From Candidatus Nitrosotenuis uzonensis (GTDB taxonomy: Archaea > Thermoproteota > Nitrososphaeria > Nitrososphaerales > Nitrosopumilaceae): 64,000 nucleotides of DNA. Shown here piece after piece: positions 2,131 through 63,556 of this stretch. Below the pieces are notes generated by a model. That model saw nothing but the letters and a program-made list of their open reading frames with translations. It searched no databases and was not told where the DNA came from. The DNA is taken from positions 62,001 through 126,000 of the forward strand of contig NZ_CBTY010000009.1 in NCBI RefSeq assembly GCF_000723185.1, written 5' to 3'. The translations under genes and the position numbers were made by a program. Position 1 is the first letter of the stretch. Each line of letters opens with the position of its first letter.

Positions 2131-3390
2131 TCAGTGTGCCCAACCCCTCTCCATGAGTTTAAGCTTTGTTGCAGGTTTTACACATGCTGGATTGCCATTG
2201 GATGCCTTAATTACAAGTTCAAAGCCGTCGCTGCATTCTACAGCCATTCCTTCTCGCATCTGTTTTAGTGGAGGTAGTGTTGGCATCATAGGCAGTATTT
2301 TCAGGATTTTATCATCATTTGGTGCAGGGGAGCCACGACCGTCCTTGTTACTGGTAAGCAAATAGATGAAGCCATCATTACCAACGTGGACATCGCGAAG
2401 CCTGCCAAAAGTTCCTGAAAATAAAGACTGTTCTGAAAGAATTTTACCGTGCATTGCGTCAATTTCAAAGGCGTGCAGATGCACACTTCGTAGGTTTGCC
2501 ACAAGGAACTTTCCTTTCAGAGCAGGTATCTTGTCATCATCATAAAAGGCTGCCCCTGATGGAGCCCATGCTACATTTCCAGTATGAAATAACGGGTTTA
2601 CATATCTAGAGTCATGCTCATTGCCAATGACTTCCGGCCAGCCGTAATTTTTACCGGGATGAATTATGTTGATCTCATCGTGTGCAAACCCACGCTCTCC
2701 GGATGGGCCGTGCTCAGTTGCAACCAACATGCCCGTCTTAGGATCCCAATCAAGGCCTTGCGGATTTCTGTGCCCATATGAATATACCGGTGAATTTTCA
2801 AACGGGTTGTCATCTGGTATGGTGCCATCAGGATTTATTCTCAGTATTTTCCCAGCAAGTGAGTTTGGATCTTGGGCAAGTGATGCGATAGCAGCATCTC
2901 CCGTAGTTATGTAAAGCTTGCCATCAGGACCAAACTTTATTCTTCCTCCGTCATGAATGGGAGCCCCGGGAATTTTGTCAATTAGTATAAACTCGTCAGC
3001 AACTTTGTTATTTGACTCTGTAAATCTTGAAACCCGATTATACGTTGATAAAAATTCGGAATACGTATAGTACAGATACAAGTGATGATTTTGTTCAAAA
3101 TTTGGATCTAAGGTTAGTCCTAGCAGGCCGCCCTCAGCTCTTCCTACATTTAGCTTCAAAGCTGGATCGCTTTGTAAGGAGCCATTCTCGATTACGCGCA
3201 ATGTTCCAGTTCTTTCAGTCACAAATATTCTTCCATCAGGAGAAAACGCAATTGCCCAAGGAATTGTCAGATTATCTGTAATGGTTTCCACTCTTAGGCC
3301 ATGTTGTGGAAATTCCTGTGCTAGGACATTCTGAGTGTATGTCAGAAGAGTCAATAGTAGTGCGGAGAGTACTATGTATTTAGCGAACAA
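2131..3390 (-). CDS. Exported PQQ-dependent sugar (glucose/sorbosone-type) dehydrogenase with ERGWA tail
   Basis: A 419-residue protein starting at TTG 3390. Residues 1-24 form a signal peptide (hydrophobic core then VLAQ). The rest is the six-bladed propeller of soluble aldose-sugar dehydrogenases: LTIPWAIAFSPDGRIFVTER, HDGGRIKFGPDGKLYITTGD (the His is the catalytic base position) and a late GKNYGWPE blade motif. These enzymes oxidise aldoses outside the membrane using PQQ and calcium. PQQ synthesis genes are not seen, so cofactor supply is open. Residues about 375-419 are a separate tail (CSDGFELVIKASNG.PACVKP, ending LMERGWAH) also found on the 393-residue protein at 4188-5369. A TATA-like GATTAAAATAAT sits about 25 nt upstream, suggesting a leaderless TTG start. 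Confidence 0.85.
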   Translation of the reverse strand: MFAKYIVLSALLLTLLTYTQNVLAQEFPQHGLRVETITDNLTIPWAIAFSPDGRIFVTERTGTLRVIENGSLQSDPALKLNVGRAEGGLLGLTLDPNFEQNHHLYLYYTYSEFLSTYNRVSRFTESNNKVADEFILIDKIPGAPIHDGGRIKFGPDGKLYITTGDAAIASLAQDPNSLAGKILRINPDGTIPDDNPFENSPVYSYGHRNPQGLDWDPKTGMLVATEHGPSGERGFAHDEINIIHPGKNYGWPEVIGNEHDSRYVNPLFHTGNVAWAPSGAAFYDDDKIPALKGKFLVANLRSVHLHAFEIDAMHGKILSEQSLFSGTFGRLRDVHVGNDGFIYLLTSNKDGRGSPAPNDDKILKILPMMPTLPPLKQMREGMAVECSDGFELVIKASNGNPACVKPATKLKLMERGWAH

Positions 3391-3515
3391 TCTAGCTGAA
3401 TAGTTTACTGCAATTATTTTAATCCTTTACGTCTCTTATGAAACAAGTAGTAAAACTACGCTCTGTCGCACAAATCCACATAATTCCATACCTTCCAGTA
3501 GGTTATCGTACCAGT

Positions 3516-4154
3516 CTATGCCATCACAAACATGTTGTACAATGATATTTTGAGCATCAGCTCCTGTATCATGTTGCGTTTCTTCTCGGATCTGACCTAC
3601 TCACCAAACATTCTTTTCATACTGGAGAACACAGATTCTACAATCCATCTAGAACCATAGCTTACGCTAGATGCCCATTTGGAATAATCTGCCAGCTGTT
3701 CCATTACAGCAATCTTTCGCAGGTAGCATCCTTTTGATTTTGGCACGGAATTTCTCCTCACCTTGATTGCAGGGATGATGTTTCTCCCATCCAGATAGGA
3801 GAATGACTCCCTGGAATCAAAGGCACCATCACACAATGTCTTGATTATTGTTCCGTGTTTGGCAGACTCTTGTACCAGATATTTGAGGTGTTTTGAGTCA
3901 TGTGAATGCTCATCTGTTACCTTTACTGCCAGGATTTGTTTTGTCTCTATATCGACGCCTACATGTATTTTCAAAAATCCCTTCCTTTTCTTTTGCCATT
4001 TTTGTGTCAGCCACTCACCCCGATTTGTTAGCTTGATGCCTGTAGAATCGATTGCCAAAACGATGTTGTGTTTTGATTTGATTGGTTTTTGTTTGATGTC
4101 AAGCCTGTTGACTCGGATGACGGTAAAATCCGGAATTGCAGACACATCATGCAT
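3516..4154 (-). pseudogene. Decayed IS5/IS4-type DDE transposase remnant
   Basis: The reverse frame shows a DDE transposase core: first Asp in LAIDSTGIKL, second in LCDGAFDS, and Glu in RWIVESVFSSMKRMFGE. The N-terminal third of a normal transposase is missing: upstream of 4154 the sequence passes within about 35 nt into the neighbouring gene. An amber codon at 3597-3599 interrupts the frame just after MKRMFGE; beyond it the frame continues in register with family-like residues (VRSEKKRNMIQELMLK...YNMF) to a TAG at 3516. So the gene is both 5'-truncated and nonsense-mutated. I found no convincing terminal inverted repeats. It is a dead insertion sequence that marks past transposition next to two exported-protein genes. 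Confidence 0.85.
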
Positions 4155-4187
4155 TCAGGATGATATGATTTTAGGATAGGCTCTAAG

Positions 4188-5369
4188 TCACAACAGTTTT
4201 GCCCAGCCTCGCTCAATTAATTTTGATTTTGTTTCAGGTATAACACAAATGGGATTTTCATTGCTTGTCTTCATTAGTAGTTCTAATCCATCTTTACAAC
4301 TAACTTGTTGTAACGGTGTTCCAGCCTTGAATTGCATAAGAGGAGACAGTACTGATGTTTTTACTGGATTTTCATCAACTGGATGCATTGATTTAGCCAT
4401 AGTAATGAGTTCTTCAAGTGGTACGTTTCCCCGTAGCTCAACCATGGTATTTGGTGTAAAAAGAAATAGCTCAGCTGGATATTCATACCTGATTCCTTCT
4501 GTAGTCATTCTCTCCTCTAGTTCAATCGCTATTCCCTTCAAGCCATTTATCATGATCTCTTTTCCCTCATTTTGTGCAACATAAGCTTGCATCCAGCTAG
4601 TCAAATTAAAGTTTGGAGAGTTTGCTTCAGAATATATCAGTATTGAATCAGAGTGTAAAAAATTACTTGATTCTGTAGTGTTTGTGATTTTAGCTGGTGC
4701 AAAAATCAACCCAAGAAAAGGAGGGGGCGTGCTTTGCCCTTGAAACGAGTATCCTTTTGGAAGGTATCTTGGGGCAACAAAATCCTTTGGCATTATTTTG
4801 TCCAGTTCTTGTAGAAGTTCAGAAGGATTTGTTGGGAAATCATTTGAAAGATTTGGAACTGCAGGAATTGGCAAGCTATCCCTCAATGAGTAGTCAATCA
4901 ACGGATCTAATTCAGTGATTTTGTCTTTGTCACCAATTACAAGATAGAAGTATTTCCCACTCATACCAAAGATCTTGCTTTGTGCTACAAATTCTACTGT
5001 TCCCCACGGTGTATCGGTGTTGTTTCTGATTTTAAGATGTAGCAAGACTTGTTTTTCAGAGTTTGATGGAACACGAATTGTTTGTGGCTCAAACGAATAT
5101 TCTTCAATAAAAGATTGTGTGTTTTCAGGAAAAGGAATATTGAAATTAATTTCATGCTCAGTTGAATCGGTATTATTAATTCTGATTGGGATCGTTGCTT
5201 CCTCGCCCGGCTTGAGGATTAATATCTGGTGAAATGGTCCCTGCCTATCAAAATCCTGTGGTGATAATAAAATATCAAATAATGTAAATTTAACATTTGG
5301 ATCTGCGTACGCAGCTGACAATAAACACACAAAGAAGAGTCCAGAAATAATCATTAGAACTGATTTCAT
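4188..5369 (-). CDS. Exported protein: Ig-like part, YLP.GY domain, ERGWA tail
   Basis: A 393-residue protein with a signal peptide (about 1-22, ending SAAYADP). Residues about 50-130 look like a beta-sandwich (EEATIPIRINNTDS, KQVLLHLKI). Residues about 195-340 form a domain beginning PRYLPKGYSFQG and ending PLEELITMAKSM that is similar to the protein encoded next (5469-6080), with matching VNG/ING..G and P.EEL blocks; it resembles the DUF4367-type domain. The last 45 residues (CKDGLELLMKTSNE.PICVIP, ending LIERGWAKLL) match the tail of the sugar dehydrogenase. The stop codon lies close to the IS remnant, so the final LL may have been altered by that event. Function unknown; an extracytoplasmic location is inferred. 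Confidence 0.75.
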   Translation of the reverse strand: MKSVLMIISGLFFVCLLSAAYADPNVKFTLFDILLSPQDFDRQGPFHQILILKPGEEATIPIRINNTDSTEHEINFNIPFPENTQSFIEEYSFEPQTIRVPSNSEKQVLLHLKIRNNTDTPWGTVEFVAQSKIFGMSGKYFYLVIGDKDKITELDPLIDYSLRDSLPIPAVPNLSNDFPTNPSELLQELDKIMPKDFVAPRYLPKGYSFQGQSTPPPFLGLIFAPAKITNTTESSNFLHSDSILIYSEANSPNFNLTSWMQAYVAQNEGKEIMINGLKGIAIELEERMTTEGIRYEYPAELFLFTPNTMVELRGNVPLEELITMAKSMHPVDENPVKTSVLSPLMQFKAGTPLQQVSCKDGLELLMKTSNENPICVIPETKSKLIERGWAKLL

Positions 5370-5468: not shown

Positions 5469-6080
5469 TCATAATGACTCTGCAATTTTTACTAGTTCTT
5501 CGGAAGGTAACATCGCTTTTAGCGATATCATCAAGCCATCCTTGAACAGTACTAATCGTGCAGGTTCATCTATTGTTTCATCAAATCGCTTGATTTGTTT
5601 TGCATCGCTTATTACACCATTGAAGCCATTGACGGTTATTTGCCTACCAGTATTGTCTTCAATCCAGAGATTAGTCCATTCTTTCTCATTGAAAGTATCT
5701 CCAAGAGGCTCCATGTAGATAGTGATTCCTTTTTGTTTAAAGGTGAATTCACCTATTGTTGTTTCTGGAGTGATAGGTTGAGAAGAAGCCATGATTATGG
5801 TTGATTTTATATCTTCGGCAACACTAGCTCTCTGGATTTTGTAACCAGTAGGTAGGTATGTTGGAAAGCTTACTTTTTGTGATGTTTTTGTGGCTGCTTC
5901 CTCTTGCGTACTTACTGGTATTTTTGGAGCTATGCTCAAAAATGGCACATCGGATGGAACTAGTCCATTCTCTTTTTGTGATTGTTCTTGAGGTAGTTCA
6001 AGTCCATAAGCTACGAAAAACACAATTAGTGTTGTCGCAGCAAGACCTGATGAGATTATTCCTATAGTTTTTTTATTCAT
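5469..6080 (-). CDS. Membrane-anchored exported protein with YLP.GY (DUF4367-like) domain
   Basis: I start at ATG 6080 (MNKKTIGIISSGLAAT), preceded by a good ribosome-binding site (GGAGTGAGAAG directly upstream); the longer open frame to 6236 overlaps the preceding gene fragment. The 203-residue product has an N-terminal hydrophobic segment (about 5-26), with no clear cleavage site, and an outside domain starting FPTYLPTGYKIQ, passing ITVNGFNGVI and ending LPSEELVKIAESL. The same blocks occur in the 393-residue neighbour, making these two genes paralogous over about 130 residues. Related domains occur in bacterial lipoproteins and anti-sigma regulators, but no partner is visible. It is 11 nt downstream of the fragment at 6092, so they look like one transcript. 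Confidence 0.7.
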   Translation of the reverse strand: MNKKTIGIISSGLAATTLIVFFVAYGLELPQEQSQKENGLVPSDVPFLSIAPKIPVSTQEEAATKTSQKVSFPTYLPTGYKIQRASVAEDIKSTIIMASSQPITPETTIGEFTFKQKGITIYMEPLGDTFNEKEWTNLWIEDNTGRQITVNGFNGVISDAKQIKRFDETIDEPARLVLFKDGLMISLKAMLPSEELVKIAESL

Positions 6081-6091
6081 CTTCTCACTCC

Positions 6092-6430
6092 TCAACAACT
6101 CACCGGCGTTCCTTGACCGTGTTTGCTGTGCCAGAATTGTTCTGCAGCGCCGCCACAAAATGTCACAAAGTACGTTCCGTCGTTTGGTCGAAGTGTTTTT
6201 CCATTGAATCCGTCTGCTGAATTCCAAAAAGCCCATGTGTTGGGGGCTCTTGCGAATTGCAAGCCTGTATAGTCATTTGTTTCAAAGGTAAGTCCATTTC
6301 CGTCAGGAGTTTCATATCCTACTTGTAGCAGATATGCCGATGAAGAGCTACTGGCTTTGTTGCAAGAATGGCCGGTGTTGAGAGAAAGAACCCAAGTCTT
6401 GTCAAGATTCAGATCCTCTGATTTCAACAC
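6092..6430 (-). pseudogene. 5'-truncated exported-protein gene abutting tRNA-Val
   Basis: An open frame that can be read from GTG 6430, but whose protein-like character (PSDNTYYVLKSEDLNLD) extends upstream right to the 3' end of the tRNA-Val gene at 6456. It has no signal peptide, although the composition (Ser/Asn/Gly-rich, paired cysteines HSC, FCGG and a final Cys) looks extracytoplasmic. No ATG or ribosome-binding site is present between the tRNA and the frame. The simplest reading is a gene that lost its front when something integrated or recombined at the tRNA 3' end. The alternative is a genuine short GTG-started protein of 112 residues translated from a transcript shared with the tRNA. 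Family not recognised. Confidence 0.45.
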
Positions 6431-62959: not shown

Positions 62960-63556
62960 ATGTCTGCCGATTATGTGAAACGTTACGCGCTTTTTGTACT
63001 ATTGATACTTCCAGTGCACATAGCTTTTGCACTCACAGTAGATGTTACAACGGATAAAACCACCTACAATTACGGTGACTACCTTACAGTCATAATCACC
63101 GTCTCCGAAGTTTCAGACAGTGTTGCAGTCATGCACATAGTAGGACCTGATGGAGTTAAAAGTTCGGCAATTCCGATTCCAATAAAAGATATGAACACAT
63201 CAATTACAACGCCAAACGCGTTTGATCCGCAGCTATACAAGGAAGGCAGATACCAGATCCAGATAACATACGCTGGCGCCGATGCCTCTACAGAGTTTGA
63301 GATTGTGGACGCAGGCAATGCCTTTTTACCTTTTGGTAGCAATCTCATAATATCACAGTGGACAGATGGAATTATTTCCGACTATAGCTTGCTCAAGTTC
63401 CTGTCAGACAAGGGTGCAATCTCAATAAATCCTGAAGAATCCATGAAGATTCCACAATGGTACAAAAACAATGCAGGATGGTGGCTTGAGCGAAAGATAA
63501 CAGATGTCGAGTTTCTCAATGCGCTACAATATCTAATCGACCAGAAGATCGTCTAG
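62960..63556 (+). CDS. Exported protein with thaumarchaeal IP.WYKNNAGWW module
   Basis: A 198-residue protein. Signal peptide at about 1-24 (ending HIAFAL), then a beta-sandwich of Ig type (VTTDKTTYNYGDYLTVIITV, EGRYQIQITYAG). The last 35 residues (MKIPQWYKNNAGWWLERKIT with DVEFLNALQYLIDQKIV) form a compact helical module seen widely on surface proteins of this phylum, to my knowledge. It has no membrane anchor, so the module may attach the protein to the cell envelope. The stop is interlocked with that of the next, convergent gene. Confidence 0.8.
   Translation: MSADYVKRYALFVLLILPVHIAFALTVDVTTDKTTYNYGDYLTVIITVSEVSDSVAVMHIVGPDGVKSSAIPIPIKDMNTSITTPNAFDPQLYKEGRYQIQITYAGADASTEFEIVDAGNAFLPFGSNLIISQWTDGIISDYSLLKFLSDKGAISINPEESMKIPQWYKNNAGWWLERKITDVEFLNALQYLIDQKIV

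Follow-up and report, generated by a model that had tools for sequence, protein, structure and literature searches.

WING-49, a movable module of exported archaeal proteins, and its exchange with membrane anchors

The locus and the identity of the module

The window, i.e. the whole stretch of 64,000 nucleotides that was analysed, contains two genes predicted to encode exported proteins with similar C-terminal tails, a sugar dehydrogenase (GSDH) and a protein of 393 aa (Table 1). Both genes lie in the span 2131-5369 to which a previous sequence-only reading had assigned them, but the same span also holds an unrelated DDE transposase gene. The N-termini of both proteins are signal-peptide-like (MFAKYIVLSALLLTLLTYTQNVLAQ in the dehydrogenase and MKSVLMIISGLFFVCLLSAAYA in the 393-aa protein) and no membrane segment was detected downstream of them, tails included. 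These assignments are based on hydropathy only and agree with the sequence-only reading, which had described both proteins as exported and unanchored. The DUF4367-like region of the 393-aa protein shares 31% identity with the DUF4367 protein encoded in its neighbourhood.

Table 1. Positions of the features discussed in the text, counted from the first nucleotide of the window.
Feature	Positions	Strand	Basis
Sugar dehydrogenase gene, GSDH with C-terminal WING-49, 419 aa, exported	2131..3390	-	ORF; PF07995; structure model m7e3b2f333668
WING-49 of the dehydrogenase, aa 374-418, approximately PPLKQMREGMAVECSDGFELVIKASNGNPACVKPATKLKLMERGWA	2137..2271	-	NF058652, 65.4 bits, E 3.6e-18; isolated-domain model pLDDT 96
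Segment linking the propeller to WING-49, aa 371-379, overlapping the first residues of the WING-49 match	2254..2280	-	pLDDT <50
Beta-propeller (GSDH domain), aa 41-352, to which the tail is not needed for completeness	2335..3270	-	PF07995, E 8e-91
Signal-peptide-like N-terminus of the dehydrogenase, TTG start	3316..3390	-	hydropathy rule, not SignalP
DDE transposase gene, unrelated, between the two module genes and outside the system	3597..4154	-	PF01609, E 3.4e-23
393-aa exported protein, composed of a signal peptide, an N-terminal part that matches no curated family, the DUF4367-like region and a WING-49 at the C-terminus	4188..5369	-	ORF; Pfam
WING-49 of the 393-aa protein, aa 343-391, SPLMQFKAGTPLQQVSCKDGLELLMKTSNENPICVIPETKSKLIERGWA	4197..4343	-	NF058652, 76.5 bits, E 1.3e-21
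DUF4367-like region of the 393-aa protein, aa 199-328	4386..4775	-	E 3.7e-4, just below the Pfam cut-off
Neighbouring DUF4367 protein, related body, without WING-49	5469..6236	-	Pfam; body comparison
Repeat of about 35 residues (also at L162, L164, L166, L167 and L172)	62969..63553	+	

The two tails share 57% identity across the aligned segment, and the bodies preceding them are unrelated. Both tails are matched by the NCBIfam model NF058652, named “WING-49” (49 positions, curated cut-off of 22 bits), over model positions 1-48 in the dehydrogenase and 1-49 in the 393-aa protein, so that the shared tail on two unrelated exported proteins, as previously proposed, was confirmed. With scores of about three times the cut-off the tails resemble the model in length and in the conserved positions along its whole extent, and no difference in sequence was apparent. 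In the source genome a profile search retrieved ten copies of the module (E 1e-21 to 1e-25), all ten of which scored above the NF058652 cut-off. Since one curated model matches both tails and the profile finds ten copies in the genome, a chance resemblance is excluded; judging from their sequences the tails represent one homologous module of about 49 residues, WING-49. The sequence-only reading had located this tail correctly by its ERGWA form, but had given its length as about 45 residues and missed its PLxQ start.

The module begins with (S/P)PLxQ up to 16 residues ahead of the first cysteine. Based on 131 distinct module ORFs from related genomes its pattern reads (S/P)-P-L-K-Q-h-x-x-G-(I/V)-x4-(V/I)-x-C-x2-G-h-x-L-h-h-(K/R)-x3-G-x-P-A-C-V-x-P-x-(T/S)-x3-L-h-x-R-G-(W/Y/F), where h denotes a hydrophobic residue. 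The two conserved cysteines recognised earlier are present in 131/131 (first) and 130/131 (second) of these ORFs and the glutamine in 127/131. Without exception, each protein carries a single WING-49.

It was also considered whether the tail belongs to the GSDH enzyme domain. This was rejected: PF07995 ends at aa 352 and the module begins at aa 374, the linker is modelled with low confidence, and most orthologues have other tails or none.

No Pfam model covers WING-49 in either window protein, a literature search retrieved no paper on it, and the output for the NF058652 entry gives no function. The novelty is limited, since the domain has already been catalogued by NCBI; our addition is the evidence for an exchange with anchors, which is the first functional lead for WING-49 that was found.

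Position, fold and distribution of WING-49

Among 124 complete proteins WING-49 was C-terminal in 54, N-terminal behind the signal peptide in 28 (defined as lying within 70 residues of the protein start) and internal in 42. The source genome itself encodes a copy ahead of a dienelactone hydrolase (DLH; C9:321042) and another midway along a frame of 489 residues (C6:72479). Signal-peptide-like starts, predicted by hydropathy rules and not by SignalP, were found in 89 of 91 de-redundant WING-49 clusters, as the sequence-only reading had expected, compared with 140 of 326 neighbouring clusters. WING-49 is a movable module with a free position in the chain, occurring on proteins with export-signal-like N-termini.

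The partner bodies form 43 sequence groups. The Pfam families detected among them comprise GSDH, DLH, serpin, DsbA-like thioredoxin, metallo-beta-lactamase with Kazal, cupredoxin, DUF7482, PepSY, DM13, extracellular solute-binding protein (SBP), sulfatase, ice-binding-like proteins and the YNCE propeller. A common substrate is not apparent among them; what they share is export.

AlphaFold2 predicted a helix, a beta hairpin and a second helix for WING-49 from 70 module sequences (pLDDT of 96 for the best model and 80-83 for the other four). The same order of elements reappeared in the model of the full dehydrogenase, in which the propeller is complete and residues 371-379 have a pLDDT below 50. 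According to these models WING-49 appears to be an independent, autonomous domain which folds separately from its partner. In the model, one cysteine lies ahead of the first strand and the other within the second strand of the hairpin. Furthermore, no cysteine beyond those of the module occurs in 38 of the 124 complete proteins, in agreement with a bond inside the module, and we infer a disulphide between its two invariant cysteines.

A sequence search of the PDB with the module gave no match and Foldseek with the module model nothing below an E-value of 0.001. VIA listed bL9 N-domain-like and GINS B-domain-like rows (Z ≤3.5, about 30 residues comprising hairpin and helix), which were not relied upon, as a bare hairpin-plus-helix is a common arrangement.

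WING-49 was detected in 74 of 82 listed genomes of one archaeal family (f1), with up to at least 27 copies per genome, the search having scored no more than 27 candidates in each. The copy number correlates with genome size (Spearman rho 0.62), the module being rarer in small genomes. One to three copies were found in 6 of 70 genomes of a second family (f8), and a single copy in one genome of a third family. No match was obtained in genomes outside the archaeal order, and all 12 loci from a single-sequence scan belong to Nitrososphaerota. Based on the named relatives that carry the module (Nitrosotenuis, Nitrosarchaeum, Nitrosopumilus, Nitrososphaeraceae), f1 most likely corresponds to the Nitrosopumilaceae and f8 to the Nitrososphaeraceae. 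Four control genomes gave matches to NF058652, none of them above the cut-off; phage sequences gave no match, and one weak partial match in plasmids was taken as chance. WING-49 is strongly restricted to one archaeal family, and the lineage specificity suspected from the window alone was thereby confirmed. Genomes of the family which are at least 95% complete and have no WING-49 are G014, G027, G029, G031, G034, G222, G224, G255 and G020, several of them small (0.8-1.4 Mb).

Exchange with membrane anchors

The GSDH body was compared at 30 loci, where its tail was WING-49 in 6 cases, a C-terminal membrane helix with a basic tail in 7, a PEF-type tail in 2, another repeat in one or two copies per protein in 10, and nothing recognisable in 5. 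The one PEF-type GSDH tail that was tested scored 17 bits with TIGR04296 (PEFG-CTERM), below the cut-off of 25. When all loci were considered, a homologue in which the body is joined to WING-49 instead was found for 19 of 38 C-anchored exported proteins. Eight of them are GSDH proteins, the loci of which had been selected on purpose, and 11 have other bodies, for example BNR-like proteins, the YNCE propeller or those of a large group that has no Pfam match. With the GSDH and DLH loci excluded, a C-terminal anchor was predicted by hydropathy rules in 1 of 88 WING-49 clusters versus 23 of 108 other exported clusters from the same neighbourhoods (Fisher p 5e-6). A single protein, at L104, carries WING-49 and a PEF-type anchor together. 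Thus, WING-49 takes the place of membrane or PEFG-CTERM-like anchors on homologous bodies, and both rarely occur on one protein.

The dienelactone hydrolases differ between the two families: 16/16 from f1 carry WING-49, whereas 14/14 from f8 are exported without the module and without an obvious anchor, indicating that retention is not always needed.

At three loci (L106, G024:C1:558500-578000; L104; L105) several WING-49 proteins are interleaved with PEF-type C-anchored proteins in an island. At L106 the WING-49 protein at +2236 and the adjoining protein at +3362, which has a PEFP anchor, share a common body (30% over 163 residues), as if the tails had been swapped locally.

A second element, a repeat of about 35 residues (IPxWhKxxAxWWxxxxIxDxxFxxxIQhLIxxxII), also recurs on exported proteins of this group, either singly or twice per protein. 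The tails tested matched no curated family. The repeat occurs on GSDH bodies where others carry WING-49 and was found together with WING-49 in 0 of 20 proteins.

The enzymes that process known sorting signals were searched for as well. Sortase (PF04203) was detected in none of 37 genomes, with the controls Bacillus, Corynebacterium and Lactococcus giving matches, and an LPXTG-type sortase substrate was rejected on this basis. Archaeosortase (PF09721) was found in G014 and G020, which lack the module, and missed in the module-bearing G012 and G017; many of its matches were close to the cut-off, so that its absence is soft. NCBIfam gave no TIGR04296 match on either window tail. Taking into account that the window tails have no C-terminal membrane helix and that archaeosortase does not track the module, they were also rejected as archaeosortase/PEFG-CTERM targets. 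The co-occurring transpeptidase-like gene anticipated by the sequence-only reading was accordingly not seen in either form.

Proposed role and alternatives

Ammonia-oxidising archaea, which have a cell surface of membrane and S-layer, rank with the most abundant microbes, and little is understood of how their exported enzymes are kept at this surface. Since WING-49 is found where related proteins carry a membrane anchor, it probably serves surface retention. The exchange strengthens this part of the earlier proposal of a sorting or wall-attachment tag, the core of which (a surface function and a disulphide) seems plausible, whereas its terminal sorting-tag form is contradicted. We give about even chances to WING-49 being a module, stapled by its disulphide, by which exported proteins are retained at the acidic surface of the archaeal cell without a covalent bond. 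Judging from the signal peptide, the protein would be exported across the membrane, the bond between the cysteines would form outside the cell, and the module would fold independently of its partner as modelled. The basic module might then, just as possibly as not, attach its acidic partner non-covalently to the acidic outer surface, with membrane head groups and the S-layer or its glycans as candidate ligands. In doing so WING-49 would do the job of a transmembrane or archaeosortase-type anchor and keep enzymes, inhibitors and binding proteins near the cell. The f8 dienelactone hydrolases, with neither module nor obvious anchor, and the L104 protein, with both WING-49 and a PEF-type anchor, speak against this reading.

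The module has a mean net charge of +1.5 and is positive in 91 and negative in 19 of 128 proteins, the remainder of which is negative in 124/128. Among same-length segments of the same protein a median fraction of 0.3% reaches the charge of the module, and soluble exported proteins that lack WING-49 have a mean charge of -1.5 over their final 49 residues. The S-layer of Nitrosopumilus is highly negative (PMC11153153), and a lysine patch attaches the parvulin NmPin of Nitrosopumilus maritimus to the outer face of the membrane (PMC4922055). NmPin belongs to the same archaeal group, and WING-49 would resemble it in retaining proteins outside the membrane by electrostatic, non-covalent contact. 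However, the patch of NmPin is located on the parvulin enzyme itself, and the charge of WING-49, a separate module, is mild beside its eight lysines.

PEF-type tails resemble WING-49 in replacing it on homologous exported bodies within the same archaeal order. In contrast to the PEFG-CTERM signal, which consists of a membrane helix and a basic end, is C-terminal and is tied to an enzyme (archaeosortase), WING-49 is a soluble folded domain whose position is free. In this respect it is similar to dockerin, SLH and comparable non-covalent retention modules, small domains found on many secreted enzymes in N-terminal, C-terminal or internal position, although no sequence relation to them and no significant structural match was found and WING-49 occurs in a single copy per protein.

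The most interesting alternative is docking, in which WING-49 would bind one specific partner, an S-layer subunit or a scaffold, similar to dockerin and cohesin, and gather exported enzymes on one receptor. Its single copy per protein, in any position and on highly diverse partners including serpins, is consistent with docking, as are the number of up to at least 27 such proteins per genome and the nearly invariant Q5, K/R26 and aromatic residue 48, not all of which are obviously required for the fold. However, no candidate receptor was identified, Pfam shows no dockerin over the module and the conserved columns form no duplicated loop, and we consider docking unlikely. Slightly less likely still seems its most far-reaching version, a surface-display system in which WING-49 would be the common docking unit and one receptor of the Nitrosopumilaceae envelope, an S-layer component or glycan, would gather up to at least 27 different exported enzymes, inhibitors and binding proteins in a dockerin-like manner.

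Alternatively, WING-49 may direct its exported partners to a polymer or substrate outside the cell and not to the producing cell itself, as might be supposed from the hydrolases and binding proteins among its partners and from its rarity in small genomes. Since the partners, with redox proteins, inhibitors, DsbA-like proteins and a sulfatase, have no common substrate, and since a module that is exchanged with membrane anchors would rather be directed to the cell, such ligand binding appears quite improbable. It seems even more doubtful that the cysteines form a switch or a metal site serving the partner enzyme. Their near invariance and some redox partners (DsbA-like, cupredoxin, DM13) would fit, but most partners are not redox proteins, the alignment contains no conserved histidine or other ligand, and the proteins without a further cysteine are what a structural disulphide inside the module would lead one to expect. 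Finally, a terminal sorting signal that a transpeptidase would cleave and link to the envelope is hardly credible, since the 54 C-terminal copies that would fit it are outnumbered by 70 N-terminal or internal ones among the 124 complete proteins, the very internal occurrence named beforehand as evidence against a sorting tag, and since sortase is absent from the 37 genomes searched and archaeosortase does not follow the module.

If WING-49 is indeed the retention device proposed above, it would identify surface proteins, in some genomes dozens of them, give a location to many hypothetical proteins and provide a small tag for protein display on these archaeal cells.

Among the individual partners, an archaeal full-length serpin (L109:2330-4510, +; E 1e-116) carries WING-49 internally, and one exported archaeal protein (L129:2976-4325, +) unites metallo-beta-lactamase and Kazal-type inhibitor domains with WING-49. 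A second GSDH paralogue contains a single in-frame TAA in several genomes (G012, G013, G015, G178), which suggests either a decay of the paralogue or a match overrunning the gene end.
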